Shown: positions 41,789-63,650 of the stretch, piece after piece
How positions within the stretch are numbered: the first letter of the stretch is position 1
How the letters are laid out: each line of letters opens with the position of its first letter
DNA from: Sinorhizobium sp. 8-89
GTDB lineage: Bacteria > Pseudomonadota > Alphaproteobacteria > Rhizobiales > Rhizobiaceae
Reading direction: 5' to 3'
DNA length: 64,000 nt
Assembly: GCF_030124325.1 (NCBI RefSeq)
Contig: NZ_JASKLR010000016.1
Location: 1-64,000 of the forward strand
Translations under genes and position numbers: made by a program
The notes under the pieces: model-generated
What the model was told of the DNA's origin: nothing
Databases searched by the model: none
The model's input: the letters and a program-made list of their open reading frames with translations, nothing else

Positions 41789-41813
41789 GGAACCAGCGTC
41801 CCGCTCGCACGTT
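41789..41813 (+). promoter_or_regulatory. RpoE2/EcfG-type stress promoter (HAD-ATPase gene)
   Basis: GGAAC, 16 bases, CGTT: an exact match to the rhizobial general-stress ECF consensus (GGAAC-N18/19-TT). It predicts a start near 41820, about 70 bases before the HAD-ATPase ATG. Confidence 0.8.
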
Positions 41814-41888
41814 CGGTTTGTCCAGGAGATCAACGGCGACGGCCAGGAACATGCGCGTTTGATGGCCGGGAAGAGAGGCGGCGAGCAA

Positions 41889-43595
41889 ATGTATGTCATG
41901 GCCCTTGCGACAGATTATGATGGCACCCTGGCCGAGGACGGGGTTGTCAGGCCGGAAACCCTCGAGGCCTTGAAAAGACTGAGGGAGACCGGCCGCAAGC
42001 TCCTCCTCGTTACCGGCCGCGAGCTGCCGGACCTCAAGCGCGTCTTTCCCCATACGGACCTCTTCGACAGGGTCGTCGTCGAGAACGGCGCCTTGCTCTA
42101 TTCGCCCGATTCCGAAGAGGAGCGGCCGCTTGCGCCCGCGCCGCCGCCGGAATTCGTCGAGCGCCTGAGGCAGAAGGGCGTCGAAGAGATATCCGTCGGG
42201 CGGTCCATCGTCGCCACCTGGGAGCCCCATCAGGCCACGGCTCTCGAGGCGATCAACGAGCTCGGCCTCGAACTCGAGATCATTTTCAACAAGGGCGCGG
42301 TGATGGTGCTTCCGAGCGGCGTCAACAAGGCGACCGGTCTGAAATCGGCGCTCGAGGAGATGCAGCTTTCCTTCCTTAACGTCGTGGCGGTCGGCGATGC
42401 GGAGAACGATCACGCGCTCCTGAGAACGTGCGGCTGCGGCGCTGCGGTCACGAATGCCGTGCCTGCGCTCAAGGAAACGGCCGATCTCGTCCTCGAAGGC
42501 GCGCGGGGCGCCGGCGTGGAGGAATTGATCGGGCAGATCATTGAGCTCGATTACGCGCTCTGCGCCAATGCACGTCACCAGGTGCCGATCGGCGAGGACG
42601 ACGAGGGGACGGTCGAAATCGGGCCGCCTGATGTCCTGCTGATCGCCGGAAGTTCCGGCATCGGCAAGTCGACGCTGGCAACGGCCCTTTCGGAGCGCAT
42701 GCGGGAGCGGCATTGCCAGTTCTGCGTTTTCGATCCCGAGGGCGACTACGAGGGTCTCGAGGGCGCGGTGACCTTGGGCAGCAGTTCGGCGACACCCACC
42801 GATAGCGAGGTGCTGGAACTCCTCGCCAATCCGGAGGACAACGTCGTGGTCAATGCGCTCGGCTTCGAAGTGGAGGAACGGCCGGCGTTCTTCGCCGAAC
42901 TGATGCCGGGCCTTTCGGCGCTTCGGGCCAAAACCGGCAGGCCGCACTGGCTGATCATCGACGAGGCCCATCACCTCATGCCGGCGTCACGCGACAGTGC
43001 CTCGCTTGCGCTTTCGGACGACCGCTCGGGCATGATCATGATCACCGTCCATCCGGATGCCGTTTCTCCCGACGCGCTTGCGGCAGTCACCGCCGTCGCA
43101 GCGCTCGGCCCCAAGGCGCGCGAGGTGATCGAGGCTCTTTGCACGACCGTCGGCGAAGCGCCGCCGGACGGCCTCGACGAGCCGCAGGAGGAGGATGAGG
43201 TTCTTTTCTGGCAACGCTCGACTGGAGCGCCCGTGCGCCGCATCCGGGTCGAGAAACCGCGGCAGACCCGCAAGCGCCACACGCGGAAATACGCCGAAGG
43301 CCATATGGACGAGCAGACAAGCTTCTATTTCCGCGGGCCCAAGAACGAAATGAACCTGCGCGCCCACAATCTGATGATGTTCCTGCAGATCGCCGAAGGA
43401 ATCGACGACAAGACCTGGGAGCATCATCTGCGGGCCGGCGACTATTCGAAATGGTTCGAGGAACGCATCGGCGATCCGGACCTGGCGGCGGAAGCCGCCG
43501 GCATCGAAGAGGATCGTGCGCTCTCGCCCGCCGAGAGCCGCGACAGGATCGCCGAGGCGGTACGCCGTCGCTACACCGCACCCGCATTGGGGTAG
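41889..43595 (+). CDS. HAD-family phosphatase fused to a P-loop ATPase
   Basis: A 568-aa two-part protein. Residues 1-215 are a Cof/sucrose-phosphatase-like HAD hydrolase: nucleophile and acid Asp in ATDYDGTL (D9, D11), Ser/Thr in LLVTGREL, Lys in GVNKATGLKSAL and VAVGDAENDHALL (metal Asp pair). Residues 245-400 form a P-loop ATPase: Walker A AGSSGIGKSTLATAL (about 254-262) and Walker B HWLIIDEAHHLMPA (about 354-362), of the HerA/DUF853-like ATPase style. The C-terminal 110 residues are basic and contain YFRGPKNEMNLRAHNLMMF. It reads from the stress promoter at 41789. Role unknown; a stress-induced phosphatase coupled to ATP-driven DNA or protein remodelling is speculative. Confidence 0.82.
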   Translation: MYVMALATDYDGTLAEDGVVRPETLEALKRLRETGRKLLLVTGRELPDLKRVFPHTDLFDRVVVENGALLYSPDSEEERPLAPAPPPEFVERLRQKGVEEISVGRSIVATWEPHQATALEAINELGLELEIIFNKGAVMVLPSGVNKATGLKSALEEMQLSFLNVVAVGDAENDHALLRTCGCGAAVTNAVPALKETADLVLEGARGAGVEELIGQIIELDYALCANARHQVPIGEDDEGTVEIGPPDVLLIAGSSGIGKSTLATALSERMRERHCQFCVFDPEGDYEGLEGAVTLGSSSATPTDSEVLELLANPEDNVVVNALGFEVEERPAFFAELMPGLSALRAKTGRPHWLIIDEAHHLMPASRDSASLALSDDRSGMIMITVHPDAVSPDALAAVTAVAALGPKAREVIEALCTTVGEAPPDGLDEPQEEDEVLFWQRSTGAPVRRIRVEKPRQTRKRHTRKYAEGHMDEQTSFYFRGPKNEMNLRAHNLMMFLQIAEGIDDKTWEHHLRAGDYSKWFEERIGDPDLAAEAAGIEEDRALSPAESRDRIAEAVRRRYTAPALG

Positions 43596-43651
43596 GATTG
43601 AGCCGGCCGGCAATCGCCGGCGCTTTTCCAGGCGTAGAGATCAAAAAGGCT

Positions 43652-43846
43652 CTACCGGTTCGGCTTCTGCTTGGAGCCGGCACTCCTACCGTCCGAGCTT
43701 TTCGAGCGCTCGTCGAACCGGTCGGCGCCTTTGGCGAGATCGGAACCCTTCTGTGCTTCCACCTTTTTCTCTTCCTTGGCGGCGCTTTTGTGCAGGCCGC
43801 GCGACGATTGCTTGCCCTTCGCCGTCGGGGCTTTTTCGACACCCAT
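43652..43846 (-). CDS. 64-aa Lys/Ser-rich hydrophilic stress protein
   Basis: MGVEKAPTAKGKQSSRGLHK... is highly charged (Lys, Glu, Asp, Ser) with no hydrophobic core and looks intrinsically disordered. GGAGGA lies nine bases before the ATG at 43846. The minus strand has an exact GGAAC-N16-CGTT promoter 35 bases further up. Composition recalls hydrophilin or DNA-protective small proteins; this is inference. Convergent with the HAD-ATPase gene. Confidence 0.72.
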   Translation of the reverse strand: MGVEKAPTAKGKQSSRGLHKSAAKEEKKVEAQKGSDLAKGADRFDERSKSSDGRSAGSKQKPNR

Positions 43847-43880
43847 TGCAGCCACTCCTCCGTGAGCGAAACTGAGTTTG

Positions 43881-43905
43881 AACGTGCGGGAGCTTTGTTT
43901 GTTCC
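43881..43905 (-). promoter_or_regulatory. RpoE2/EcfG-type stress promoter (64-aa protein)
   Basis: On the minus strand GGAAC (43901-43905), 16 bases, CGTT (43881-43884). The predicted start, near 43874, leaves a leader of about 28 bases. Confidence 0.8.
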
Positions 43906-44069
43906 TTCGGCGACCGAGCAGCCTCGGCGGCCGAATTTCTTTCAGTTATCGCGACCGCAGTCATCATCGCCTGCGCCCTGTTCGTCGCCCTTGCCGCTGC
44001 GGCAGGAGAGGAGGGCCGGGATCCTGCATGTACGGCAATTAGGAATAGCAGGCATATTTGCTACAGGGG

Positions 44070-44085
44070 TCGTAGGAGCCTACGA
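44070..44085. promoter_or_regulatory. Palindrome TCGTAGG-AG-CCTACGA before the cupin gene
   Basis: A perfect seven-base inverted repeat with a two-base centre, 55 bases upstream of the cupin start. Possible operator; no regulator gene is adjacent. Confidence 0.45.
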
Positions 44086-44139
44086 TCCGGAGTGGGATAG
44101 AACCGCGAAGCGGTCCTGCGCCGAGCAAGGGGCACGCAA

Positions 44140-44523
44140 ATGGATGTCGTCTCGAATACCGATCACCCGCTTGAGGAATGGCGCCCGGGCGTCCAGACCC
44201 GGATGCACGTCGCCGCCTCAGTTGGCTCGACAGAGCTCTGCATCTTCGAGCAGTGGGTCGCACCTGGCGCCGGCGCGCCTGACCATTTCCATTTCGTGGA
44301 GGAGGTGCTGACCGTGCTGGCGGGCGAAGCGGAGACCTGGCTCGGTGGGGAGCGCATGGTGCTGACGCATGGCCGCTCGCTGATCGTTCCTGCTGGCCTC
44401 CGGCATGGCTTCCGCAATGTAGGCAAGTCGACCCTTCACATGCATGCGGTTCTTGCCTCCGCCTGTTTCGAGGCAGCGTTCGACCATCGCGAACCTCCGG
44501 TTCGTCGATGGGCGAGGCTGTAG
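44140..44523 (+). CDS. Cupin-domain protein
   Basis: A 127-aa single-domain cupin. Motif 1 is APDHFHFVEEVLTVLAGEAE with two His and one Glu as metal ligands, and motif 2 is VPAGLRHGFRNVG with the final His. It could be a small metal-dependent enzyme or a sensor protein; substrate unknown. The RBS is weak. Monocistronic. Confidence 0.85.
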   Translation: MDVVSNTDHPLEEWRPGVQTRMHVAASVGSTELCIFEQWVAPGAGAPDHFHFVEEVLTVLAGEAETWLGGERMVLTHGRSLIVPAGLRHGFRNVGKSTLHMHAVLASACFEAAFDHREPPVRRWARL

Positions 44524-44719
44524 CCGGTCATCCGGCCATTTGTATGAGGCCCGCCGCACGTAGCTGTGGACTTGCCTCGTTTTTGCCGTTCTTGCCTTCT
44601 CCGTGGCCTTTTTGAGTTCCTAAAATAGCTGACTGATTCGCGCCCGCACCGCTTTCGTCGCAGTTTCCGGGGGCCGACAAGCCTTTGACAACCCGCGGAA
44701 CTGCCCAAGGAGAAGAGCC

Positions 44720-45763
44720 ATGACAGAGTACAAGAAGCCTATCATCACGGAGATGCGTCCGAAAATCACTGTCATCGGTGTCGGCGGCGGTGGCGGCAAC
44801 GCCATCAACAACATGATCGCGGAAGAGCTGCAAGGCGTCGATTTCATCGCTGCCAACACCGACGCGCAGGCGCTTTCGATGTCAAAGGCGGAGCGGCGCA
44901 TCCAGCTCGGCGCGGCCGTGACCGAAGGCCTCGGCGCCGGCTCGTTGCCCGATATCGGCAACGCCGCGGCCCAGGAATCGATCGACGAGATCATGGATCA
45001 TCTGGGCGGCACGCATATGTGCTTCGTCACCGCGGGCATGGGTGGCGGCACGGGCACCGGGGCGGCGCCGGTTATCGCGGAGGCAGCACGCCGCGCCGGC
45101 ATCCTGACGGTCGCGGTGGTCACGAAACCCTTCAGCTTCGAGGGCAAGCGGCGGATGCAGACGGCGGAGCAGGGCATCGAGCGGCTGCGCGAGAGCGCCG
45201 ACACCGTCATCGTCATCCCCAACCAGAACCTCTTCCGCATCGCCGACGCCAAAACCACCTTCGCCGATGCCTTCATGATCGCGGACCGGGTGCTCTATTC
45301 GGGGGTCAGCTGCATCACCGACCTGATCGTCAAGGAAGGCCTGATGAACCTCGACTTCGCCGATGTGAAGACGGTGATGAAGGGCATGGGCCGGGCGATG
45401 ATGGGAACGGGCGAGGCGACCGGAGACAACCGCGCGATGATGGCGGCCGAAGCGGCGATCGCCAACCCGCTGCTCGACGAAGTGTCGATGCGCGGCGCCA
45501 AGGGCGTGCTGGTCTCGATCTCCGGCGGCATGGACATGACGCTGTTCGAGGTCGACGAGGCGGCCACCCGCATCCGCGAGGAGGTCTATGACGAGGCCGA
45601 CATCGTCGTCGGCGCGATCTTCGACCGGACGCTCGACGGCACCTTCCGCGTGTCGGTGGTGGCAACGGGCCTCGACAGCCCGCGCACAGCCGGCGAAATG
45701 CAGGGCCAACCCGAGATGGTCAACGGCCAGCCGGCGCAGATGCCATCGCGCACGCTGCAATAA
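44720..45763 (+). CDS. ftsZ2: FtsZ2, second tubulin-like division protein lacking the C-terminal tail
   Basis: A 347-aa FtsZ homologue: [14 protein letters not shown] (nucleotide binding), the tubulin signature [13 protein letters not shown] (about residue 108) and the T7 region [15 protein letters not shown]. The globular core is complete, but after VVATGLD only about 30 residues remain ([19 protein letters not shown]). There is no conserved DxPxFLR-type peptide for FtsA/ZipA/MinC contacts. Rhizobia such as Sinorhizobium meliloti carry exactly such a short FtsZ2 besides full-length FtsZ1; FtsZ2 is dispensable and its role is uncertain. AAGGAG precedes the ATG. No division genes are adjacent. 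Confidence 0.93.
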
Positions 45764-45777
45764 GTCCGCGAAATCAG

Positions 45778-45882
45778 GCAATCCCCGGCGGAAAGCCGTC
45801 GCACGCTATTCGTGGAATTGGTTTGAATTACGCAATTCCGGAGGGAAAACCGCTACACACTTTTTCTGGAATTGCTTAGGCG
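45778..45882. repeat. Two tandem AATTCC-type palindromic repeats
   Basis: Copy 1 (about 45778-45824): GCAATCCCCGGCGGAAAGCC...TTCGTGGAATTGG. Copy 2 (about 45836-45882): GCAATTCCGGAGGGAAAACC...TTTTTCTGGAATTGC. They lie between the convergent ftsZ2 and cyclase genes. Confidence 0.7.
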
Positions 45883-45946
45883 GGGGAGCCGGAGAAGCAG
45901 GCGGTGCAAGGCGAGCCTTCTCGTTCCGCAGCTTCTCCGGCACTGC

Positions 45947-47767
45947 CTATCCCGGCAAGCCGGCGCGCTCGAGGTCGGTGGCGAAGCGGTCGATGAAGTG
46001 TTCCGGCATGGCCGGGACGCCGCCGAAATAGAATTCGGCTCGTGCTTTTTCGATCGTCATCTCCGGCCGAAATTTTAGAAGTTCGGTGAGCGCCGCAGGT
46101 GCCGCCTCGGCGTTGCCTTGGGCGCCGACGACTGCCGTCAGCAGCATTGCCGGCCAGAAGGTGGTGTTTTCCTGCCTCAGCGATGCTCGGGCCGCAGCTT
46201 CGGCTTGCATGAGCCGGCCCGACTGGTAATGCGCGATCGCCAGCATGTTGTGGAACGTCCAGAGATGCGGATCGCGCGGGCTCAGCCGGAACGCCTCGTT
46301 GATTTCGGCGATGCCTTCCTCCGGGCGTTCGACGTAGCAGAGCGCCTGGCCCAGGGCGAAATGGCCCTGGGCAAAGCTTGCGTCGAGCTCGAGCGCATTG
46401 CGCAGATGGACGATGCCACGTTCCGGCTGACCGCGCAGAGCCAGCGCCCGGCCGAGGGCGACATGGGCGGCGGGCTCGCGGCTGTCGAGGGCGATTGCGC
46501 GCTCCGCGAGCCGGATGGCGTCGGCGATCCGCAAGCCGCGCTCGTCCATCGGGCCATACCAGCCGAGCTGGATGTGCACATAGGCGAGGCGCGCATAGGC
46601 CTGCGCGAATGTCGGGTCGACGCGCACCGCGCGTTCGAAGAGCTCTTTCGCGATCTTCAGGTCGTCCAGATTGAACTTGTAGAGGTGCCAGAGACCTTTG
46701 AGGTAGATGTCCCAGGCATCCATGTCGGCGGCGGTCTGCCCGCGAAGGGCAGCAAATTCGATGATGCCGAGTTCGGGCTGGACCGTGCCGGTGATCTGGC
46801 CGGCGATCTCGTCCTGAAGCACGAACAGGTCGTCCAGCGTCCGGTCGTAGCGTTCCGCCCAGAGAAGCGTGGCGCTGTCTGCGCGCAGAAGCTGGGCGGT
46901 GATGCGGATGCGGTCGCCCGATCGCCGGACGCTGCCTTCGATCACGTATTTCACCCCGAGATCCTCGGCGGCCTTCCGGACGTCCACGGGCTTGCCCTTG
47001 TAGGCGAAGGAGGAATTGCGGGCGACGACGTGCAGCCACCGGCAGCGCGCGAGCGTGTGGATGAGCTCCTCGGTGAACCCGTCGGCAAAATGCTCCTGTT
47101 CGTCGACGCTGGACATGTTGATGAACGGCAGCACCGCAATCGACGGCCGCTTGCGATCGGGCAGGGTGCGGGCGGCGTGAGCGGATGGGGGCTGATCGCA
47201 TCGGTCGTCGTCACCGAGCCGACGCGCCGCCGCCGTGCTGCCGGGCGCCGCCTCGTCCGGCATCCAGCGCCAGACGCGAACGGGGTGGCGAATGTCGGGG
47301 AGCGTGCGGCGGCCGAGATCGGTCGAAGGAAAATCGAGCTTCGTCCCGATATGGTCGTGCACCTGTTGCGAGATGCAGATGCCGCCCGGCGGTGCGATCT
47401 CCTGGAGCCGCGCGGCGACGATGACGCCATCGCCGTGAATCCCGTCGTCTTCTACGATGACATCGCCGAGGTGAATGCCGATCCGCAGGTGCATGTGGCG
47501 GTCGGAATCTGCGGTTTCGTTGCGCCGGAGCATTGCCTGCTGGATCTCGAGCGCCGAGGTGACCGCCCCGAAGACGCTCGGAAATTCGGCGAGCAGGCCG
47601 TCGCCGATCTGCCGGACGACCCGGCCGCCGCGCTCGGCAATGGTCGGGAGAATGACCTCCGTCTGGTGCGCCTTCAGCGCCGCGAAGGTGCCGGCCTCGT
47701 CATGCCGCATCATCCGGCTGTAGCCGGAAAAATCCGCGTCCAGGATTGCTGCCAGCCGCCGCTTCAT
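45947..47767 (-). CDS. Class III cyclase homology protein with TolB-like domain and TPRs (paralogue 2)
   Basis: A 606-aa protein with the same layout as the 14659 and 60585 genes. The cyclase domain has both metal Asp residues (AAILDADFSGYSRMM; GIHLGDVIVEDDG), but the catalytic motif reads GDGVIVAARL: the transition-state Asn (GDGVNIAARL) is Ile. LKNI is LPDI, losing the usual Lys. Then RPSIAVLPFINMSSVDEQEH to LLWAERYDRTLDDLFVLQDE (TolB-N/FlgO-like) and TPRs. It may be a non-catalytic paralogue. Transcribed convergently with ftsZ2. Confidence 0.85.
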   Translation of the reverse strand: MKRRLAAILDADFSGYSRMMRHDEAGTFAALKAHQTEVILPTIAERGGRVVRQIGDGLLAEFPSVFGAVTSALEIQQAMLRRNETADSDRHMHLRIGIHLGDVIVEDDGIHGDGVIVAARLQEIAPPGGICISQQVHDHIGTKLDFPSTDLGRRTLPDIRHPVRVWRWMPDEAAPGSTAAARRLGDDDRCDQPPSAHAARTLPDRKRPSIAVLPFINMSSVDEQEHFADGFTEELIHTLARCRWLHVVARNSSFAYKGKPVDVRKAAEDLGVKYVIEGSVRRSGDRIRITAQLLRADSATLLWAERYDRTLDDLFVLQDEIAGQITGTVQPELGIIEFAALRGQTAADMDAWDIYLKGLWHLYKFNLDDLKIAKELFERAVRVDPTFAQAYARLAYVHIQLGWYGPMDERGLRIADAIRLAERAIALDSREPAAHVALGRALALRGQPERGIVHLRNALELDASFAQGHFALGQALCYVERPEEGIAEINEAFRLSPRDPHLWTFHNMLAIAHYQSGRLMQAEAAARASLRQENTTFWPAMLLTAVVGAQGNAEAAPAALTELLKFRPEMTIEKARAEFYFGGVPAMPEHFIDRFATDLERAGLPG

Positions 47768-47779
47768 GCGCCCCGTCTC

Positions 47780-47838
47780 CTACAGCGCCGTGCGTGTTTC
47801 AGACCCACGAAGATCGCTGTAGCACTTTGAATTGCTGC
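47780..47838. repeat. RIME half-element
   Basis: CTACAGCGCCGTGCG...CGCTGTAGCACTTTGAATTGC corresponds to the CTACAGCG hairpin half of a RIME. Confidence 0.65.
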
Positions 47839-47897
47839 GGAAGAGTAACAATCGCGGAATTGGGAGTCCATGAAGACGGCCGGCGTCGCGGGACCAT

Positions 47898-48554
47898 TCA
47901 TTCGATCAGCAGCAGCCCGCGCTTCTTTTCGCCATCGAACGTATCCATCGCCGAGAACAGCCGTTCGCGCTCGATCAGCCAGGGCTTGTAGTCCTCGTTC
48001 ACGTCGAGAACGAAGACCATGTCTTCCGCCTCGAGATACGCTGCGATCGGCGAGTGATGGCCGACGCCGGCGCCGAAGATCTTTTCGCGGGTGAAATTGA
48101 CGATGTAGCGGCGGCCGGGATCGTTGGCGCGCTTCATATGATCGTGGAATTCCTCCGCCGTCAGGTCCCGAAGAACCGATACCTCCCGGCCGGTCTTCGC
48201 TCGCGCGACTTCGGCAAGTTCATCAAGCGTGAGCCCCATGAAGCAGAACCCGGTCCAGCACTTGCCCGTGCCTTCGAGGACTTCGGCCTCGGTCGTCTCC
48301 TCTTCTCCAATGGAGCGGAACGCGTTGGCGATGCTGGCGGGGCCGCAGCGCGAGCCGTTCGACTGCCAGGTGACGTCCTTGCCGAAGCTGGCGGCCACCG
48401 GGAGCTGCCAGGCGCGGTCCATCAGTTCCGGCGTGCGAATGACCGCGGATTGGATCGCTTCGGACGAAACGCCGGACGGGACAGCGGCGAAATAGGTGGC
48501 GCCGCAGAGCACGCCGACGCCGACCGCTATGGCGAAAACCAGACCGCGCTTCAT
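47898..48554 (-). CDS. Phytochelatin synthase-like cysteine peptidase
   Basis: A 218-aa protein. The N-terminus has a signal/anchor helix (VFAIAVGVGVLCGATYFAAV). The catalytic Cys lies in SNGSRCGPASIANAFRSIG (about C70), the His in GVGHHSPIAAYLE and the Asp in MVFVLDVNEDYKPW (papain-like Cys-His-Asp triad of the phytochelatin synthase family). Bacterial members lack the plant C-terminal domain and usually cleave glutathione to gamma-Glu-Cys; polymer synthesis is weak or absent. Location is probably periplasmic or membrane-anchored. Flanked by RIME elements. Start ATG at 48554. Confidence 0.87.
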   Translation of the reverse strand: MKRGLVFAIAVGVGVLCGATYFAAVPSGVSSEAIQSAVIRTPELMDRAWQLPVAASFGKDVTWQSNGSRCGPASIANAFRSIGEEETTEAEVLEGTGKCWTGFCFMGLTLDELAEVARAKTGREVSVLRDLTAEEFHDHMKRANDPGRRYIVNFTREKIFGAGVGHHSPIAAYLEAEDMVFVLDVNEDYKPWLIERERLFSAMDTFDGEKKRGLLLIE

Positions 48555-48577
48555 GGCGGGAACCTCGACCGGGCAGA

Positions 48578-48654
48578 CTACAGCGCCACGCGTCTTATCA
48601 GACGCGCAAAGCACGCTGTCCTTAAAACGGATACGATTTAAGGAAACATGCAGT
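48578..48654. repeat. RIME element
   Basis: CTACAGCGCCACGCGTCTTA...CGCTGTCC followed by TTAAAACGGATACGATTTAA and AAACATGCAG, the typical hairpin halves in reverse order to 21924. Confidence 0.72.
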
Positions 48655-48753
48655 AGGAACAATGCCTGATGGAGGTCGCAGGATCAATCAGAACCGCGGC
48701 GCGTCGCCGTTAGTCGGACGGGAGAATTTCACTGCCGCGTGTTATGCGGTCGC

Positions 48754-50088
48754 CTAGCGCCCGTTTGCCGACGTCACGCGCCAGATGACGTTGCCAACGT
48801 CGTCGGCCACCAGCAAGGCGCCTTTCTTGTCGATCGCCACGCCGACCGGGCGCCCCAGCGCCTTGTCGTCCTTGTCGATGAAACCGGTCAGGACGTCCTT
48901 CGGCGGGCCGGCGGGTTTGCCGTCCCGGAAGGGCACGAAGATCACCTTGTAGCCGCTGCGCACGCTGCGGTTCCATGAGCCGTGCTGGCCGACGAAGGCG
49001 CCGTTGGCGTAGTCCGGCCCGAGCCGTGCGCCGGCCGCGAAGGTCAGCCCCAGCGAGGCGGTGTGGGCGCCGAGCGCATAATCGGGCTTGATCGCCTTCT
49101 CGACGAGGTCCGGGCGCGGCGGCTTGACGCGCGCGTCGACGTTCTGGCCGAAATAGCTGTAGGGCCAGCCGTAGAAGCCGCCACCCCGCACGGAGGTCAT
49201 GTAGTCCGGCACCAGATCGTCACCGAGCTCGTCGCGCTCGTTGACGGCGACCCAAAGCCTGCCGTCGTCGGGATTCCAGGAGAGCCCGTTCGGGTTTCTC
49301 AGGCCCGAGGCGAAGACCCGTGTGCGGCGGGTCGCCGCGTCGACCTCGAGAACGGCGGCGCGATTTTCCTCCGCGGCCATGCCGTTTTCCCCGACATTGC
49401 TGTTCGATCCGACGGTGACATAGAGCTTGCTGCCGTCGCGGCTGGCGATCACGTCCTTGGTCCAGTGATGGTTGAGGTCTCCCGCCGGCAGATCGACGAT
49501 CTTCTCAGGCGCTGCCTTCATTCGGGTCTCGCCTTCGGTATAGGGGAAGGCGACAAGGGCATCGGTGTTCGCGACGTAGAGCCTGCCTTTGGAAAGTGTC
49601 ATGCCGAAGGGGGAGTTGAGACCCTCGATGAAAGCACTGCGCTGATCGGCGACACCATCGCCGTTGGTGTCACGCAAGAGGGTGATGCGATTGGCGCTTT
49701 TGGTGGCGGCGCCGGCCCGCTTCTGGGCCTGATCCATGAACACCTTCTTGATGCTGAAGCCTCCGTTGCGTTTGGCGGGGGCATTGCTTTCGGCAACCAG
49801 CACGTCGCCATTCGGCAGCACATGCAGCCAGCGCGGATGGTCGAGGTCGCCGGCAAAGGCGTTCACCTTCAGCCCGCTTGCCGCCTTCGGCTTGGCGCCA
49901 TTTGGCCAACCCTTGGCCTCGGCGATGTTGACCGTCGGTATCAGCGTGCTGGTGGGCGCCGGCAAGGTCGGGTCGGGGCCGTAGCTGCCGCTTTGCTCCG
50001 CTCGTCCTTGCGCCGAAACGCCGGCGCAAGCCGCGGCGAGCGCACCGGCGAGGACGGTAGCTGCAATTCCAATCGCACCGGTATTCAT
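48754..50088 (-). CDS. PQQ-dependent sugar (sorbosone-type) dehydrogenase-like protein
   Basis: A 444-aa exported beta-propeller of the L-sorbosone dehydrogenase/sGDH family. Signal peptide [76 protein letters not shown] and [19 protein letters not shown] are the usual propeller blades. The C-terminus has [18 protein letters not shown]. It may use PQQ to oxidise sugars or aldehydes, but the reaction is unproven. ATG 50088 follows AAGGA; a longer frame upstream lacks support. The stress promoter at 50177 directs it. Confidence 0.85.
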
Positions 50089-50176
50089 CTTGCGTCCTTC
50101 GAGCGGAATATTCGTGCCGCGCTCGCATCGTCTCACGAGGCTTCGATGCGCTCCAGCTTCTTTCTCTCGCGCTCCT

Positions 50177-50201
50177 AACGGCGGTGCCCGGCCATCGTTC
50201 C
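50177..50201 (-). promoter_or_regulatory. RpoE2/EcfG-type stress promoter (sorbosone dehydrogenase-like gene)
   Basis: On the minus strand GGAAC (50197-50201), 16 bases, CGTT (50177-50180). Predicted start near 50170, leader about 80 bases. Confidence 0.78.
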
Positions 50202-50279
50202 CTGCAATCTTTGCGCGGGGCGTCATTAGGAGTATTCTTAAATGCTTAGGCGAAAAGCCTATGTTTTCGGGAGGAAAAG

Positions 50280-54623: not shown

Positions 54624-54626
54624 CGC

Positions 54627-54729
54627 CTACAGCGCCGCGCGTCTTTTCCGGCGCGCAAAGGACGCTGTAGCACTTTGATTGCTGCATGTTCTTATCCTTA
54701 GATCGGCAACGATTTAAGGGAACATGCAG
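54627..54729. repeat. RIME element
   Basis: CTACAGCGCCGCGCGTCTTT...CGCTGTAG, then ATTGCTGCATGTTCTTATCC...TTTAAGGGAACATGCAG. Confidence 0.75.
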
Positions 54730-54766
54730 GATGTAGCCGACAACGGTCGGAATTCGGAGAACTGTC

Positions 54767-55288: not shown

Positions 55289-55385
55289 GGCGCCACGAAG
55301 TACCAACGTACGCGGCGGCGGTGTGAGCTGATCAGCAGCAACGGCCGCGACACATTCCGTGCGCGGCCGAGCGAGTTCGTTATCT

Positions 55386-56624: not shown

Positions 56625-56796
56625 GAGAATACCTCGTGGCAAAATTGGCAGCGACGCTCCTCCAAGACGAACGAGCCGCATGAAAAACGACATGCCTGCC
56701 GAAAAATCTTGCACGACATCGCCGCGCGGCTTGCCGTGGCCGGGGACGGTTATCTGCGCCTGGAGCGGGTGCGGGTTCGGGGCGGATCGCCAAACC

Positions 56797-57429
56797 CTAC
56801 CTCGGGCGACGGACGGCTCTCACCTTGCCGGCGCTTCCGCCGCCGCAGAAGAAGCGGTCGGCGCCATCGGACTCCAGTCCCGATACGCCCATGCCAGGCG
56901 GCATGTCGACCCTCTCCAGGACGTTTCCCGTTTCGGGGTCGATGCGCCTGACATCGCTCTCGTCGCCTTCCCAGGTGCCGTGCCAGAGTTCGCCGTCGAT
57001 CCAGGTGACCCCGGTGACGACGCGGTTGGACTCGATGGTGCGGAGGACCTTGCCCGTTTCGGGATCGACCTGATGGATCTTGCGGTCTCGGTACTGGCCG
57101 ACCCAGAGCGTGCCTTCGGCCCAGGTGAGGCCCGAGTCGCCACCGTTGCCGGGCGCAGGGATGGTGGCGAGCACGCGGCCGGTCTTGGGGTCGATCTTCT
57201 GGATGCGATCCTCGGCGATCTGGAACAGGTGCTGCCCGTCGAAGGCCGTTCCCGCATGCGCGGCGACATCGATCGAGCGCGTGAGTTCCCCGTTCGCCGG
57301 ATCGAAGGCATTCAACTTGTCTCCGGATGCAAACCAGACCTGGCCGCCGTCGAAGGTGACGCCATGCACGTTGTCGGCTCCGGGGAAGGGGCCGTATTCA
57401 CAGAGAATTTCGGCGGCAGATCGTTTCAT
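56797..57429 (-). CDS. Beta-propeller (SMP-30/virginiamycin B lyase-like) protein
   Basis: A 210-aa protein built of repeated strands such as VHGVTFDGGQVWFASGDKLN, TAFDGQHLFQIAEDRIQKID, SGLTWAEGTLWVGQYRDRKI and GVTWIDGELWHGTW (a repeat of about 40 residues, four to five blades). It ends FCGGGSAGKVRAVRRPR. No signal peptide. Substrate unknown. The ATG at 57429 has a strong AGGAGG RBS eight bases upstream. Confidence 0.82.
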   Translation of the reverse strand: MKRSAAEILCEYGPFPGADNVHGVTFDGGQVWFASGDKLNAFDPANGELTRSIDVAAHAGTAFDGQHLFQIAEDRIQKIDPKTGRVLATIPAPGNGGDSGLTWAEGTLWVGQYRDRKIHQVDPETGKVLRTIESNRVVTGVTWIDGELWHGTWEGDESDVRRIDPETGNVLERVDMPPGMGVSGLESDGADRFFCGGGSAGKVRAVRRPR

Positions 57430-57533
57430 GCTTTTCCTCCTGAGACATGATTTTCTGCAGCGCGGCACAAAGCTCGCCGCAGCATGTGGCTTGCTGCGAT
57501 GCGCCTGTCGATCGGCAGACCAACACCGCATTC

Positions 57534-57905
57534 TTATTCCACGATTTTCCAATAGGAGTCCTTGCGGATCACCTTCCCGTTGCGAAACGTGTAGAAGTCA
57601 CAACCCCGGACCTCCGTTCTGATCCCGTCGCGGGTCGTGCCCGTGAGGGTCCATTTCGAGATTCCAGTGTCGGTAGCCGAGTCCACAAAATGCTCATCGT
57701 TGCCGTAGTGGACATCGGGCAGGCCTTCAAAGCGTGCTGCCAGCGCTTCACGTACGTTCTCTTTGCCCTCGAAGCGAGTACCCCAGGGCTTGCTTCCTCT
57801 CGGCATCTCCAGGACGCAATCGTCAGAAAAGAACGCCATGATGCGATCGAGATCGTGCGTGTTGAAGGCCGCGCATAGCTCCTTCAGTGTTGATCGAATG
57901 TCCAT
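57534..57905 (-). CDS. SnoaL-like/ketosteroid-isomerase-fold protein
   Basis: A 123-aa protein beginning LKELCAAFNTHDLDRIMAFFSDDCV with GSKPWGTRFEGKENVREAL and HFVDSATDTGISKWTLTG, typical of nuclear transport factor 2-like small enzymes. 104 bases upstream of the beta-propeller gene on the same strand, possibly cotranscribed. Confidence 0.85.
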   Translation of the reverse strand: MDIRSTLKELCAAFNTHDLDRIMAFFSDDCVLEMPRGSKPWGTRFEGKENVREALAARFEGLPDVHYGNDEHFVDSATDTGISKWTLTGTTRDGIRTEVRGCDFYTFRNGKVIRKDSYWKIVE

Positions 57906-58024
57906 CGCCCCAGTCTCCGTCCCGCCGGTCGATCCTGAACATGCAGCACCGTCGCCGCGCGCCGGCCGCGCTGCAAACTATCTGCCTTTATCCAGATCGC
58001 ATCAATCCGGCTGTGGTCCTGAGC

Positions 58025-59245
58025 CTAGTCGCTCGGCAGCGGGCCGGGGAGTAACAAGATTGTCGGGAAACCGGTGAGCGGCGGGGTCATCCAGCGGCGC
58101 GCCGGTCCGCGGCCGAAGGATTGCACCTTGCCGGCCTCCGCAAGCTGTTCGAGCGCCCGCTGCACTGTGCGGGGGCTCGCGCCGAGCGCGATCGCCAGCG
58201 CCGAGCTCGACCAGGATTCGCCGTCGGCAAGGAAGGCGAGCACCGCCGCGTGCCGTTCCTCGACGGGCGGCACAAGCACGACGACGTCGCTTGCGCGGCG
58301 CGGCACCAGCGCAAAGCCATTCTTTGTCGCGCTCACGTCCGCCAGCGCCCGAAGCTCCGCGCGGAGCCGTCCAATTTCCACCCTAAGCCGCGCGCGATGC
58401 GATTCATCGGCGTGTTTCGCCCGGAAGGCGCGGGAAAGGAGCGTGCTCCTCGATACGTCTGCCGGCCAGGCTTCGGCGAGCGCCCGCGCCAGCGCGAACA
58501 GGATCGGGCGGGTCGCGAGCGAAACCGCCTGCCTCTCGTCGCGCACGACATTGCGACAGGCGTCGACGACAAGCGCGCCGGACGCGAAGAGCGTCTCGAC
58601 CTCCTCGAGCAGGAGCGGTCGTTCCCCGCCACGGGCGATCAGCCGCGCCGCCGGCGTCTTCAGGACGAGCGCTGCGTTTTCGACCTCCGCCGTCAGCGCC
58701 GGGATATCCGCCGCGCGCGCGGCTTCAGTGGCACGGCTGAGCGCGGCATGCGCCGTCTTCGTCCGCAAGCGCCGGACGGCGATGCCAGCGACCGCGAGTT
58801 CATGCGCGGCGCGCGCGGCGGGTGGAAGCGGCGAGGGATCGAGCGCGGAGAGCATGCGCTCGGCATCGTCGAGGCGGCCGATCAAAAGCAGGCGGCGGAC
58901 TTCGACGTTCCGTGCATGCGCGGCGTTCACCCGGTCGCCATGCGCCTCGAGTGTCGCGCGCGCTGCGTCGAGCGCCTTCGCGGGCCAGCTGAGATCGCGC
59001 GAGACGAGGGCGATCTCGGCCTCGGCGACGACGCATCGTGCGCGCGCCACCGCTTCTCTGCGGCCGAAGGCGCGCGCGGCACTCTTCAGCAAGGCCTTCG
59101 CGCGCACGAGATCGCCGAGCTGCGCCATGGCAATGCCGCGGAGCGCGAGCGCGGGCGCGTCGCCACGGAGCGCAACCCGCTTCAATGCGCCGAGGGGATC
59201 ACCCGCCGCGAGTGCATGCGCCGCGGCGGTGATCAGCGAGTCCAT
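58025..59245 (-). CDS. Helix-turn-helix regulator with TPR-like N-terminus
   Basis: A 406-aa protein. The first 260 residues are Ala/Leu/Arg-rich helical repeats (LLKSAARAFGRREAVARARC, LEAHGDRVNAAHARNVEVRR). The middle is GERPLLLEEVETLFASGALV. The C-terminal HTH, SSSALAIALGASPRTVQRALEQLAEAGKVQSFGRGPARRW (about 355-395), is a winged-helix DNA-binding region. Start at 59245. It diverges from the DUF899 gene and probably regulates it; this pairing is inferred from position. Confidence 0.8.
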   Translation of the reverse strand: MDSLITAAAHALAAGDPLGALKRVALRGDAPALALRGIAMAQLGDLVRAKALLKSAARAFGRREAVARARCVVAEAEIALVSRDLSWPAKALDAARATLEAHGDRVNAAHARNVEVRRLLLIGRLDDAERMLSALDPSPLPPAARAAHELAVAGIAVRRLRTKTAHAALSRATEAARAADIPALTAEVENAALVLKTPAARLIARGGERPLLLEEVETLFASGALVVDACRNVVRDERQAVSLATRPILFALARALAEAWPADVSRSTLLSRAFRAKHADESHRARLRVEIGRLRAELRALADVSATKNGFALVPRRASDVVVLVPPVEERHAAVLAFLADGESWSSSALAIALGASPRTVQRALEQLAEAGKVQSFGRGPARRWMTPPLTGFPTILLLPGPLPSD

Positions 59246-59358
59246 CGGAATCCCGTCACACTTGTCACTCTCACCATTCGATACCCGGTCGTAATCTATC
59301 TCCCGACCAACAAGCAACACGTCGCACCGAAAACGGGACGGCGCCAGACAGGAGAAGA

Positions 59359-60159
59359 ATGATGACGGAACATCTGACCGGGACGCGCGAAGGGTGGCTG
59401 GCAGCACGGCTCGATCTGCTCGAGGACGAGAAGGAGCTGACGCGGCGCAGCGACGCGTTGGCGCTCCGGCGCCAGGCGCTGCCCTGGGTCCGGATCGACA
59501 AGGACTACCGGTTCGAGACCGAGGAAGGAAGCGCCTCGCTCAAAGACCTCTTTGGAGGCCGCTCGCAGCTTCTCGTCTACCATTTCATGTTCGGCCCCGA
59601 TTACACAGCCGGTTGCCCGTCCTGCTCTTCGATCGCGGATGGGTTCAACGGCATCGTCGTCCATCTGCAGAACCACGATGTCGCCTTCTCGGCGATCTCG
59701 CGAGCGCCGCTCGCAAAGCTGCAGGCATTCAAGCGGCGGATGGGGTGGAGCTTTCCCTGGGCGTCCTCGAACGACGGCGATTTCAACCGTGATTTCAGCG
59801 TCTGGTTCACCGAGGAAGAGCAGCGCAAGGGCGGCATAGAATACAACTTCCGCCGCGAGCCGCCGGCACCGGAGCCGCTGGCAGGAAAGACCGTTCAGGA
59901 ATGGCAGTCGGCCGCCAGCGAAGGGCCGGTGGCACAAATCGCAGCGATGACCGGAACCGACGTTCCCACCTATACGCGTGACAGGCCGGGCGTCAGCGCC
60001 TTCGTGCTCGATGAAGGCGTCGTCTACCATACCTATTCCAGCTATGCGCGCGGACTGGACAGCCTGTGGGGCATGTATCAATGGCTCGACCGTGCGCCTC
60101 TGGGGCGCAACGAACACGGTATCTGGTGGCGCCACCGCGACGCCTATGGGCGGAGCTGA
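59359..60159 (+). CDS. DUF899 thioredoxin-fold protein
   Basis: A 266-aa protein. The N-terminal helical region (REGWLAARLDLLEDEKELTR) is followed by a thioredoxin-like fold with a CxxC (GCPSCSSIADGFNGIVVHL, about residue 90) and typical DUF899 segments (DFNRDFSVWFTEEEQRKGG and RGLDSLWGMYQWLDRAPLGR). Reaction unknown. Divergent from the HTH regulator; the 97-aa membrane protein gene starts six bases after its stop. Confidence 0.85.
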   Translation: MMTEHLTGTREGWLAARLDLLEDEKELTRRSDALALRRQALPWVRIDKDYRFETEEGSASLKDLFGGRSQLLVYHFMFGPDYTAGCPSCSSIADGFNGIVVHLQNHDVAFSAISRAPLAKLQAFKRRMGWSFPWASSNDGDFNRDFSVWFTEEEQRKGGIEYNFRREPPAPEPLAGKTVQEWQSAASEGPVAQIAAMTGTDVPTYTRDRPGVSAFVLDEGVVYHTYSSYARGLDSLWGMYQWLDRAPLGRNEHGIWWRHRDAYGRS

Positions 60160-60165
60160 CGTCCG

Positions 60166-60459
60166 ATGTTGCGCCCCTCCACCAGTCCGAAGAGAACGCC
60201 GGCCGCAGGCAGTGGATCGGCCGGCGTTCCGGGCGGCAACGCAGTCACCTTCTGCGCTGCCAACTGGCTGTCCTTCGCGGCGGCGCCGACCTTCGCAACC
60301 ATGGCGCTGCTGACTGGCGTTCTTGGCCCGGAGGATATGCTCTGCTCGTCCGTGCCGGATGCGTCGCCCTTGACCGGAATGGTGCTGATGTACCTGCTGA
60401 TGAGCGTCTTTCATTTGCCGCCCTGGCTGAGGCTGGTCTCCAAAGCGCGGCGCGTCTGA
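60166..60459 (+). CDS. 97-aa membrane protein following the DUF899 gene
   Basis: A small membrane protein with one or two helices (PTFATMALLTGVLG; GMVLMYLLMSVFHLPPWLRL). It starts six bases after the DUF899 gene, so is probably cotranslated. Its last codons (Lys-Ala-Arg-Arg-Val-stop) are read from the start of a RIME element, so the natural end may have been replaced. Function unknown. Confidence 0.7.
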   Translation: MLRPSTSPKRTPAAGSGSAGVPGGNAVTFCAANWLSFAAAPTFATMALLTGVLGPEDMLCSSVPDASPLTGMVLMYLLMSVFHLPPWLRLVSKARRV

Positions 60460-60580
60460 CAAGACGCGCGGCACTTTACAGCGCCGTGCGTCTTTTCAGA
60501 CGCACAAAGGTCGCTGTAGCACCATGAATCGCTGCATGTTCTTATCCTTAAATCGAATACGATCTAAGGATACATGCAGT
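60445..60580. repeat. RIME element with an extra half-hairpin
   Basis: CGCGGCGCGTCTGACAAGAC...CACTTTACAGCG, then CTGTAGCACCATGAATCGC and GCATGTTCTTATCC...AAGGATACATGCAG. The left part is a duplicated GCGTCTGACAAGACGC hairpin. Confidence 0.72.
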
Positions 60581-60584
60581 AGCG

Positions 60585-62798
60585 TTACCGCTCGAGCGAG
60601 AAGAACTTCAGCGCTTGCGGGGTGACGTGGATGTAGTCCTTGTCGGTCTGCTCGCCCGTGGTGTTGCGATAGACATAGCCGCAGACCATGCGGTCGAGGA
60701 AATAGCCGCCGATCTTTTCGCAGAGCTGGTCGCCCCGGATTTCCGCCACGCCGGTGATGCTGGTGTTTGCGGTGCGATAGGCGGTGTTGCCGGCCCTGTC
60801 GAAGGCCTGGAGGAATTCGGTGCCGTTCTTGTGTTTGCCGATCCAGGTTTTGTCGTCGATGAGGCCGGCGAGATCCGCCTCGGAGAGGCGGTCGGCCGCC
60901 GCCCCGGCAAAGCCGAAGGGCCACTCCGGTACGCCCGCCGCTTTCAGACCGGCGAGGTGGTAGGCCAGATCCTCCTTGCCCCAATAGTCATAGAGGTAGC
61001 TGTAATAGGTGAAATTGGCCTCCGGATATAGCGCCTTCAGCTTGCCGACTGCGGCGGTCGCGCGCGCCGCGTCGCCACGACGGGCATAGGCGGCGGCGAG
61101 ATATTCGCGGGCGGGTTCGGCATCGGGCAGCGCGTCACGCGCCGCTTCGATCAGGGGGATGGCGCGGTCGTTGTCGCGGGCGGTGTAGAAGACGATGCCG
61201 GCGAGCAGCTGGAAGCTCGGCGACGGCGAAGGGTCGAGCCGCAAGGCGCGCTGCATTTCCGCGATCGCCTCCTGATGGCTGCCGGTATGCGCCAGGATCA
61301 ACGCAAGGTTGCCGTAGGCCTCCGCGTCGCTCGGCTGGGCGGCGACCGCGCGATGGGCGGAATCGAGCGCTTCGGTGTCACGGCCGTCGACGAGCTGCAA
61401 AAGCGCGAGCACGGTGTGGGCGCGGGCATTGTTGGGGTCGAGCTTCAGGGCCTCGCCGGCGGCGTCGTAGGCGATCTTGCGGGCGACGGCGGCGGACCAG
61501 AGATAGTTATAATCGTTGCGCCAGACATCGACCGCGACCCGGGCGATGCCGGCATGGGCGTCGGCGAAACGCGGGTCGAGATCGATCGCCTTCTGGTAGA
61601 AGGAGAGGGTGCGGCGATAGGTGTTGACGTCGCTATAGATCAGGCCTTCCTGCTCGGCACGCAGATAATTGTCGTAGGCCTCCAGATTGTCGGTCGGTAT
61701 GCGGGAGAGCCGGTCCTGCTCGCTCTGGCTGAGTTTGACCTCGAGGGCCGATGTGATCTTGCCGATGACGTCGTCCTGGACGGCGAAGAGATCCCTGTAC
61801 TGGCGGTCGTAGCGCTCGGCCCAGAGCGAGTGGCCAGTCATCGCGTCGATCAGCTTGACATTGATGCGCAGCCGCGAATCCGCCCGCTGCAGCGAGCCTT
61901 CGAGCACGTAATGAACGCCGAGTTCAGAGGCGACGTCCTGGATCGTCGCCTCTGAACTGCGCATGGCGAGGACGGAGTGGCGGGCGATGACGAAGAGGCC
62001 GGAAACCTTCGAGAGCTCGGTGATGAGATCGTCGGTCAGGCCCCGCGCCAGATGGTCCTGCGTCTGGTCGCCGCTGACATTGATGAAGGGCAGCACGGCG
62101 ACGGAGGGCTTGTCCGGCAGTGGATAGGCGATGCGCTGGGGAGGCGGCTCCGGCCAGACAAGCGTCCAGGGCTGCCACCAGAGCACGGCTCCGGCGAGTA
62201 TCGCCGCTACGGCCGCGGTGATCGCTGCGGCGAGCCCTGCGCCGCGCGTCCTGGGTGCGGCGACAGTCTTGCCGGCCGCTGTCGGATCGAGCACGACGCG
62301 ATAGACGCGCACCGGCTCGGGAATGTTCTTCACCTTCTGCTCGCCGAGCGAGAGAAAGCCGACGGCAAGCTTCGTCCTCAACTGGTCGTAGGCAGAGCCG
62401 GAAATCGCGATGCCGCCGGGTTCCGCGAGCGCCTCCAGCCGGGCGGCGATGTTGACGCCGTCGCCGTGGATATCGTCGCCCTCGACGATGACGTCGCCGA
62501 GGTTGATGCCGATGCGGAATTCGAGCCGTTGCTCGCGCGGCGCGTCGGCATTGCGCCGAGCCTTCTCCCGCTGCACGCCCACCGCGCAGCGAAGCGCATC
62601 GACGACGCTATGGAACTCGACGAGAAGGCCGTCGCCCATGGTCTTGACCAGGCGCCCATGATGTTCGGCGATCTGCGGCTCGAAGATCTCGGACAGATCC
62701 GTGTGGAAACGGATGCGCGTGTCCTCCTCGTCGATCCGGCTCAGACGGCTGTAACCGACGACGTCGGCAATGAGGATGGCTGCGAGATGGCGCTCCAT
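60585..62798 (-). CDS. Class III adenylate cyclase with TM helix, TolB-like domain and TPRs (paralogue 3)
   Basis: A 737-aa signalling protein. Cyclase domain (1-165): AAILIADVVGYSRL and GINLGDVIVEGDD supply the metal Asp residues, GDGVNIAARLEALAEPGG has the transition-state Asn and Arg, and EQKVKNIPEP the Lys. A helix (GLAAAITAAVAAILAGAVLW) follows, so the TolB-N/FlgO-like domain (PSVAVLPFINVSGDQTQDHL to LWAERYDRQYRDLFAVQDD) and TPRs may face the periplasm. The C-terminus has CEKIGGYFLDRMVCGYVY with two Cys. ATG at 62798 is the domain start; a longer frame upstream runs into the RIME. Confidence 0.87.
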   Translation of the reverse strand: MERHLAAILIADVVGYSRLSRIDEEDTRIRFHTDLSEIFEPQIAEHHGRLVKTMGDGLLVEFHSVVDALRCAVGVQREKARRNADAPREQRLEFRIGINLGDVIVEGDDIHGDGVNIAARLEALAEPGGIAISGSAYDQLRTKLAVGFLSLGEQKVKNIPEPVRVYRVVLDPTAAGKTVAAPRTRGAGLAAAITAAVAAILAGAVLWWQPWTLVWPEPPPQRIAYPLPDKPSVAVLPFINVSGDQTQDHLARGLTDDLITELSKVSGLFVIARHSVLAMRSSEATIQDVASELGVHYVLEGSLQRADSRLRINVKLIDAMTGHSLWAERYDRQYRDLFAVQDDVIGKITSALEVKLSQSEQDRLSRIPTDNLEAYDNYLRAEQEGLIYSDVNTYRRTLSFYQKAIDLDPRFADAHAGIARVAVDVWRNDYNYLWSAAVARKIAYDAAGEALKLDPNNARAHTVLALLQLVDGRDTEALDSAHRAVAAQPSDAEAYGNLALILAHTGSHQEAIAEMQRALRLDPSPSPSFQLLAGIVFYTARDNDRAIPLIEAARDALPDAEPAREYLAAAYARRGDAARATAAVGKLKALYPEANFTYYSYLYDYWGKEDLAYHLAGLKAAGVPEWPFGFAGAAADRLSEADLAGLIDDKTWIGKHKNGTEFLQAFDRAGNTAYRTANTSITGVAEIRGDQLCEKIGGYFLDRMVCGYVYRNTTGEQTDKDYIHVTPQALKFFSLER

Positions 62799-62869
62799 GC
62801 CCGGTCTTCCATGCGCGGCTTTCCCGCGATGCGTGCATATACTCCGCCGATTTCCTCGGCACGATAAAT

Positions 62870-62923
62870 CATGCTGCAATTCAAAGCGTTACAGTGACCC
62901 CGCGCGTCTGAAAATAAGCGCAC
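62870..62923. repeat. RIME half-element
   Basis: CATGCTGCAATTCAAAGCG, TTACAGTGACCCCGCGCGTC and AAAATAAGCGCAC, a decayed half near the cyclase gene start. Confidence 0.55.
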
Positions 62924-63002
62924 CGCTGGTCAGAAGGGACGTGGGCTGGAAACGACTCCACACCTTGCGCGACAGCTTACAGCAGGTGCCTCTCCGATGC
63001 CA

Positions 63003-63117
63003 TTACAGCGCCGCGCGTCTGACCAGACGCGCAAAAGTCGCTGCTGCCACTGCCTGTTTCCCTGAATCGGTCGAAGAATCGAAACATGCAGCTCAGTGCT
63101 ACAGCGGCTTGTTCACG
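63003..63117. repeat. RIME element, degenerate
   Basis: TTACAGCGCCGCGCGTCTGA...GCAAAAGTCGCTG, then CTGTTTCCCTGAATCGG...GAAACATGCAGCTC and CTACAGCGGC. Confidence 0.6.
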
Positions 63118-63185
63118 ATCGCCAGGAATGCGAGGGTAATCGGGTGAAAATCGGTTCCATCGGATGCCACCTTCCGAAGGCCCCG

Positions 63186-63211
63186 AACGTTTCCTCGCGA
63201 TCATTGGTTCC
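63186..63211 (-). promoter_or_regulatory. RpoE2/EcfG-like promoter on the minus strand
   Basis: On the minus strand GGAAC (63207-63211), 17 bases, CGTT (63186-63189), within the tolerated N18/19-TT spacing. Reading leftwards it could drive the third cyclase gene (ATG at 62798) with a leader of about 380 bases that crosses RIME sequence, or a short non-coding RNA. The assigned target is inference. Confidence 0.45.
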
Positions 63212-63257
63212 GGGCGGCGGAAAACGGCCCGACCGGCACGGCTTGACCTCCCGAACA

Positions 63258-63290
63258 CAAAAACAGAGCCCGCTCCACAGGAACGGACTC
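63258..63290 (-). terminator. Rho-independent terminator on the minus strand
   Basis: On the minus strand GAGTCCG, an 11-base loop, CGGGCTC, then TGTTTTTGTG. No gene on the minus strand ends just before it, so the RNA it stops (somewhere between 63291 and 63480) may be non-coding. Confidence 0.6.
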
Positions 63291-63446
63291 TGAGAGAAGT
63301 TCGCGACGAAATGCCTGCCAACTTATTGGCGCTCATCCATTGTCAGAAACGCCGTGCCCACCCAAAAAGCATTCGGGCCAACCCGTTTGAAACCCCTCTC
63401 TCGCGTCCTCGGGAATCGCCGCTATCCCGGCGAGTTCGAACTCCCA

Positions 63447-63479
63447 ATCAGAGCTCACATGCAGGCAGCGAGCTCTGAT
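63447..63479. repeat. Perfect 10-bp inverted repeat ATCAGAGCTC...GAGCTCTGAT
   Basis: Arms of ten bases with a 13-base centre (ACATGCAGGCAGC). Located upstream, on the minus strand, of the orphan terminator at 63258. Confidence 0.75.
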
Positions 63480-63625
63480 CTAAAGGGACACTGAAATGAA
63501 TTCTCTATATGAATTCTCACGGATTTGCATGCCCATATTTGCCAATTCCACCGCCCTGGTCCAGTAACTTTTAAGGGCGATTTGTAACGAAATACGATTG
63601 TTTCCCGTGTGACGACGGTCGCTCC

Positions 63626-63650
63626 GGAACCGCCCGGAATCCGAAACGTT
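63626..63650 (+). promoter_or_regulatory. RpoE2/EcfG-type stress promoter (69-aa protein)
   Basis: GGAAC (63626-63630), 16 bases, CGTT (63647-63650), with a predicted start near 63657, about 38 bases before the ATG at 63695. Confidence 0.82.

Follow-up and report, generated by a model that had tools for sequence, protein, structure and literature searches.

Do the GGAAC and CGTT boxes found in one part of the Sinorhizobium sp. 8-89 genome belong to promoters of the general stress response, and which genes would they serve? We analysed the first 64,000 nucleotides of contig NZ_JASKLR010000016.1, referred to below as the window, and focused on five matches to GGAAC-N16/17-CGTT, two boxes 16 or 17 bases apart. 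This is the promoter form of EcfG, a sigma factor of the extracytoplasmic function (ECF) class, group ECF15, named RpoE2 in Sinorhizobium meliloti. We consider it highly likely that three of the five sites are real EcfG-type promoters, that a fourth probably precedes a weaker or partly lost member of the regulon, and that the fifth is probably a chance match. All five were present exactly at the positions and on the strands given in the initial annotation:

41789..41813, plus strand: exact GGAAC-N16-CGTT, likely EcfG-type promoter of the HAD-ATPase gene
43881..43905, minus strand: exact GGAAC-N16-CGTT, likely EcfG-type promoter of the 64-residue basic gene
50177..50201, minus strand: exact GGAAC-N16-CGTT, a weaker case, probably the EcfG-type promoter of the sorbosone-dehydrogenase-like gene
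63186..63211, minus strand: exact GGAAC-N17-CGTT, probably not the promoter of the cyclase-TPR (tetratricopeptide repeat) gene that starts at 62798
63626..63650, plus strand: exact GGAAC-N16-CGTT, likely EcfG-type promoter of the 69-residue gene

The predicted leaders of 28-82 bases at the four N16 sites agree with the likely starts at 41889, 43846 (minus), 50088 (minus) and 63695. The regulon had also been described as scattered, which is the wrong word because all five sites cluster within one 22-kb stretch. In two other genomes, G028 and G017, the cluster measures about 6 kb, against 22 kb in the window, and the sorbosone gene lies outside it; in G003 the HAD-ATPase and basic genes lie on a different contig from the other two genes. 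The window's five matches compare with a mean of 0.89 in 100 dinucleotide shuffles, of which 2 reached at least five. At the density of the whole genome (179 matches in 7.06 Mb), 1.6 would be expected per 64-kb window and 0.55 per 22-kb stretch.

Conservation of the sites before three genes

Three of the genes concerned were compared across relatives:

41889..43595, plus strand: fusion protein of 568 residues, a HAD-IIB phosphatase followed by a HerA/DUF87-like P-loop ATPase (Pfam, NCBIfam, invariant residues and fold)
43652..43846, minus strand: 64-residue basic, hydrophilin-like protein, convergent with the HAD-ATPase gene and present in 25 of the 60 genomes searched, the window's own among them
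63695..63904, plus strand: 69-residue two-helix protein of no named family (model helices 8-31 and 36-68; predicted local distance difference test score, pLDDT, 81)

These three proteins and the sorbosone-dehydrogenase-like one were searched for in 60 genomes (that of the window plus 59 relatives), of which 33 belong to the genus, and the 450 bases upstream of each gene were read in the orientation of the gene strand. The HAD-ATPase matched in 36 of the 60 genomes at an E-value of 0.001, and 30 of the best loci were read; 28 of these carried the exact site, at a distance of 62-115 bases from the start. It was missing from an orthologue of another family (G039) and from a broken gene (G012). 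All 14 HAD-ATPase loci from named Sinorhizobium or Ensifer species had the exact site as well, partly in the same genomes as the 30. Upstream of the basic gene the exact site was present in 25 of 25 orthologues, with a spacer of 16 bases in 15 and 17 in 10. It lay 58-65 bases before the second codon in 22 orthologues; two others had it at 80 bases and one at 151. The 69-residue gene was found in 17 genomes and kept the exact site in 15, where it lay about 165 bases before the start in seven, 62-70 in seven and 97 in one; in the two misses CATT replaces CGTT (G015) or the match is partial (G024). In all three genes the boxes are spaced by 16-17 bases and stand shortly before the start codon, and two of the genes show both spacer lengths.

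In the exact-site rows of the three genes, pairwise identity was 51-72% in the spacer and 34-46% in the 20 bases on either side, with the boxes at 100% because the rows had been picked by exact match (28/30, 25/25 and 15/17). Among all pairs of a 5-mer and a 4-mer at that spacing within 200 bases, GGAAC-CGTT ranked first in each of the three sets; in the HAD-ATPase set, from which the G039 row was left out, it shared first place, at 28 of 29, with two other pairs, both shifted readings of that site. GGAAC-CGTT was found in 0 of 14 regions upstream of the neighbouring ftsZ gene. Twelve syntenic regions totalling 265 kb, from the window's own genome and 11 chosen relatives, contained 43 GGAAC-N16/17-YGTT sites (Y, C or T), 39 of them at four orthologous positions, and the reversed pattern occurred there only four times.

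Profile searches for the two small proteins were extended to 397 genomes of the order, which yielded homologues outside the window's genome for the 69-residue protein (12, with 9 loci read) and for the basic protein (14, all read). Outside the genus, the exact site preceded five of the nine and six of the 14, and two more of the latter had TGTT. Pooled, this gave 11 of 23, compared with 6 of 23 for the next-best pair. All eleven sites were 65-70 bases upstream of the protein match, and the number expected per 400-base region at the genome rate is 0.005. Because the sites are conserved while flanks and spacers diverge, we take the HAD-ATPase, 64-residue and 69-residue genes to be, very probably, members of the EcfG (RpoE2-type) regulon.

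Several results weigh against this conclusion. The genes are not universal in the sample of the genus, and orthologues within one genus are not independent of one another. The exact site was absent from all five basic-gene homologues of family f35. Before HAD-ATPase orthologues outside Sinorhizobium it was scarce, with 7 of 66 named loci having one within 300 bases (three of these seven, L226, L231 and L233, are second copies in a strain with another listed locus), and it was found in 0 of 25 regions of the order-wide HAD-ATPase sample, whose genomes partly overlap the 66 loci. There was also no genome-wide excess of the pattern: 30 genomes of the genus contained 4287 matches and 4364 of the reversed pattern, with the true pattern ahead in 13 of the 30. 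A whole-genome scan with GGAAC-N16/17-CGTT had been proposed as a check on membership; we ran it on the window's own genome (179 matches, 150 reversed), and membership was not decided. A bare genome scan cannot separate members from chance, because the pattern is no commoner than its reversed form. It cannot define this regulon in these genomes, and we rejected it as proof of membership. Counts alone establish no single site; as far as sequence can tell, cross-species conservation does so for three of the five.

Outside Sinorhizobium, the HAD-ATPase gene keeps the company of stress promoters across genera, because its neighbours often carry exact sites. Among the 66 named loci, 24 had an exact minus-strand site within 1500 bases upstream, reading away from the HAD-ATPase gene, and in 22 this site was 102-211 bases from the start (for example Mesorhizobium L170, L184, L213 and L224). 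In ten such loci the site reads into one kind of open frame, DUF892 by Pfam (L170 scanned), and in eight into the frame of a membrane-like protein that weakly matches Anthrone_oxy (L213 scanned). The site in Devosia L232 is further away, at 1251 bases, and stands before a gene of the alpha-amylase family. Proteins of the DUF892 (YciF) type are linked to stress. A check for operon promoters found an exact plus-strand site within 1500 bases in 12 of 91 regions of HAD-ATPase orthologues outside Sinorhizobium (7 within 300 bases and 5 further), and the reversed pattern three times in the same regions, both strands together. A one-mismatch form, GGAGC-N16/17-CGTT, lay within 250 bases in 14 of the 66 loci, and 24 of the 66 scored 15 or more against a mean of about 3.3 in mononucleotide shuffles, many loci being close relatives in both counts. 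The HAD-ATPase gene thus tends to adjoin stress-type promoters across genera, even where it has no exact site of its own or has the one-mismatch GGAGC.

GGAGC-N16-CGTT about 62 bases before the HAD-ATPase gene is common to a group that includes L170, L184 and other Mesorhizobium. In further Mesorhizobium, inspection by eye placed the HAD-ATPase gene directly after an apparent short-chain dehydrogenase gene.

The sigma factor module and the known regulon

Membership in such a regulon requires PhyR, NepR and EcfG, and the window's genome encodes all three. On contig 16, phyR, nepR and the ECF sigma gene ecfG are adjacent (Pfam, locus L135), and exact GGAAC/CGTT sites precede phyR and nepR-ecfG. 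NepR was found twice in this genome, the second time in a PhyR-like plus NepR pair on contig 1. RsiB, RsiA and RpoE2 of S. meliloti form the same kind of module as PhyR, NepR and EcfG here (PMC3616915 and PMC6180224).

If the known partner switch operates in this strain, stress would lead to phosphorylation of PhyR, which would titrate the anti-sigma factor NepR and release EcfG. Free EcfG would bind GGAAC and CGTT, and transcription would begin a few bases downstream. Three products would then be switched on: a two-domain enzyme combining a HAD-IIB phosphatase with a HerA-like ATPase; a strongly hydrophilic 64-residue protein, probably disordered, which would probably guard the cell contents in drying or osmotic stress as hydrophilins may; and a 69-residue protein predicted to form a helical hairpin.

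The RpoE2 regulon of S. meliloti shares promoter boxes, spacing and genus with the window (passages of PMC3616915 and PMC6180224). The same passages describe over 100 direct RpoE2 targets, most of which lack a predicted function. Promoters mapped by rapid amplification of cDNA ends in PMC6180224 have the same form as the window sites. The window genes are not named in these passages, but published S. meliloti tables may already include their orthologues. Six guessed S. meliloti locus tags for the orthologues gave no match in the papers searched, and SMc00885, a known target, is annotated as a different kind of protein. In S. meliloti 4H41 (L165, G006), the HAD-ATPase and basic genes have exact sites; the upstream region of the sorbosone-like gene is without GGAAC-N16/17-YGTT, and the 69-residue protein has no match. 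The HAD-ATPase and basic genes also have exact sites in Ensifer aridi (L157, G025), a species in which, by the passages of PMC8877191, the RpoE2 response was induced by mild salt and seemed non-essential. We conclude that the three genes are very probably real, yet not unusual, members of a known stress regulon.

The promoters might be real and still be read mainly by another ECF sigma factor (RpoE5, RpoE6 or a second EcfG) instead of the main RpoE2, a reading that we regard as unlikely. The second PhyR-NepR pair in the window's genome is in its favour, as are statements in PMC6180224 that RpoE5 is a second ECF15 factor in S. meliloti and that 27 of the 40 targets of RpoE6 are shared with the RpoE2 regulon, some of them having GGAAC promoters. 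However, the same source reports that 21 of the 27 overlapping targets respond less to RpoE6, and the -35 box in the window is GGAAC, as in the genome's own phyR and nepR-ecfG promoters, whereas the ECF26 consensus is GGAATA (PMC6180224). We retain control by the RpoE2-type EcfG as the preferred interpretation.

A further cluster rich in EcfG-type sites was seen on contig 8 at 95-127 kb (L137 and L138). Some of its sites stand before small hydrophilic open frames and glycogen-type genes, names that were assigned by inspection.

The sorbosone-dehydrogenase-like gene and the N17 match

The fourth site precedes a gene with a different record of conservation:

48754..50088, minus strand: sorbosone-dehydrogenase-like (GSDH) protein, 444 residues (Pfam PF07995 and PF23500)

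Here the exact site was found in 4 of 30 upstream regions. When five regions with 54-65% identity (G039, G036, G018, G028 and G017) were left out, the remaining 25 close genus orthologues had, after GGAAC, CGTT in 4, TGTT in 14 and CTATT in 2, and 5 had none of these. The last five include S. meliloti 4H41 and two others, G020 and G031, which at that place retain GGAAC but no -10 box, with a one-mismatch GGAAG-N17-CGTT close by. GGAAC-CGTT ranked 266th among the pairs for this set. We regard the sorbosone-like gene as a probable member of the regulon, though a weaker or partly lost one.

The initial annotation had also suggested that the N17 version may serve a third cyclase-TPR gene, and this proved unsupported. 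Some 390 bases separate the site from the start of that gene, and the match was exact in one of six close cyclase upstream regions, the window's own alone; none of the five orthologous regions of close relatives examined had it, including the nearest relative, G014, and G003. It was rejected as the cyclase-TPR promoter on this ground. G002 has GGAAC-N16-CGTT at a comparable place, and G019 keeps a similar stretch with GGAAC and with CGCA in place of CGTT. Together with the exact match in the window, these two genomes are what speaks for a genuine stress promoter at this place, its leader about 380 bases long, serving either the cyclase-TPR gene or a small transcript in between. Such a promoter is improbable given its absence from the five close relatives, and we read the N17 match as probably due to chance. 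General-stress membership, claimed at first for the whole set, accordingly stands for the HAD-ATPase, 64-residue and 69-residue genes with their conserved sites, holds weakly for the sorbosone-like gene (CGTT in 4 of 25) and falls for the cyclase-TPR gene. Conservation singles out three probable regulon genes, of the kind that lacks a predicted function, as worth testing and drops one candidate.

That chance alone produced all five matches, the pattern being short and the genome of 63% GC, is a reading favoured by the lack of a genome-wide excess. We hold it to be extremely improbable, because three genes keep the site in place amid diverged surroundings and the site recurs ahead of homologues from other families.

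The minus strand of the window carries two cyclase-TPR fusion genes, at 45947-47767 and 60585-62798, each combining Guanylate_cyc with TPR. Close orthologues (80% or more) of the second were found in 5 of 39 relatives searched. Between this gene and the 69-residue gene, at about 63225-63270 on the minus strand, a hairpin followed by T residues was noted by eye, also in several relatives, and it could be the end of a small unannotated transcript.

The proteins encoded by the three genes

HAD-IIB enzymes are marked by a DxD motif, a threonine, a lysine and a GDxxND motif. In the HAD-ATPase the corresponding positions D9, D11, T42, K147 and G169-D174 are invariant in 25 sequences, as are the P-loop residues G254 and S256-S261 and the residues D358, E359, H361 and H362. 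The protein matched TIGR01484 with 104.1 bits against a cut-off of 41.8, and its structural model (mean pLDDT 81) matched phosphoglycolate and sucrose phosphatases as well as HerA-like ATPases. Its N-terminal 220 residues and HAD motifs are shared with HAD-IIB (Cof/SPP-type) phosphatases such as the phosphoglycolate phosphatase 1wr8 and Bacillus subtilis YhaX (3dnp), to which the window protein adds a HerA/DUF87-like ATPase and a conserved helical C-terminus. The ATPase region has DUF87/AAA family matches, and the PADLOC mad8 and HerA profiles cover its P-loop part (four proteins were scanned against the defence library). This region resembles HerA-like ATPases (HerA, 4d2i; STIV2 B204, 4kft) in families and folds, but in the window protein it is fused to a phosphatase. 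HerA-type DNA translocases are hexameric DNA pumps, usually with a nuclease partner. The HAD-ATPase gene has as neighbours a glutathione S-transferase-like gene and the 64-residue gene. Its closest named relative is that of Sinorhizobium psoraleae, with 98% identity, and 13 more Sinorhizobium/Ensifer loci show 79-85%.

The 64-residue protein contains 11.1% glycine, no cysteine and one aromatic residue, and its grand average of hydropathy is -1.57 without the initiator methionine. Hydrophilins have more than 6% glycine and are strongly hydrophilic, a composition that this protein displays. It shares high glycine and strong hydrophilicity with hydrophilins and late embryogenesis abundant-like proteins, but it gave no family match in Pfam or NCBIfam. 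From this composition, a protective, hydrophilin-like role is probable. The 69-residue protein is predicted to be a helical hairpin by a single-sequence model (predicted template modelling score 0.53); searches of Pfam, NCBIfam and PDB sequences gave no match at the thresholds used, with one Pfam hit at E 0.09. The hydrophilin-like protein and the phosphatase-ATPase fusion would be leads on how rhizobia survive drying and osmotic stress.

The basic gene was within 1 kb of the HAD-ATPase gene in 25 of 25 genomes that possess it. One could suppose that stress induces the HAD-HerA-like fusion together with the convergent hydrophilin-like gene and that the two act as a pair, held together in Sinorhizobium by two facing EcfG promoters, for instance as an ATP-driven machine handling nucleic acids or sugar phosphates with a protective partner. 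We think this improbable; if true, it would add a new functional unit to the alphaproteobacterial general stress response.

An ftsZ-like gene of 347 residues, at 44720-45763 on the plus strand, is divergent to the 64-residue gene. In 14 named Sinorhizobium loci, the ftsZ-like gene was beside the HAD-ATPase gene in all 14 and the 64-residue gene in 13 (L168 is without it). Elsewhere in the window, positions 30807-30943 on the minus strand gave an Rfam match to the alphaproteobacterial small RNA ar35, with 55.5 bits against a cut-off of 45.

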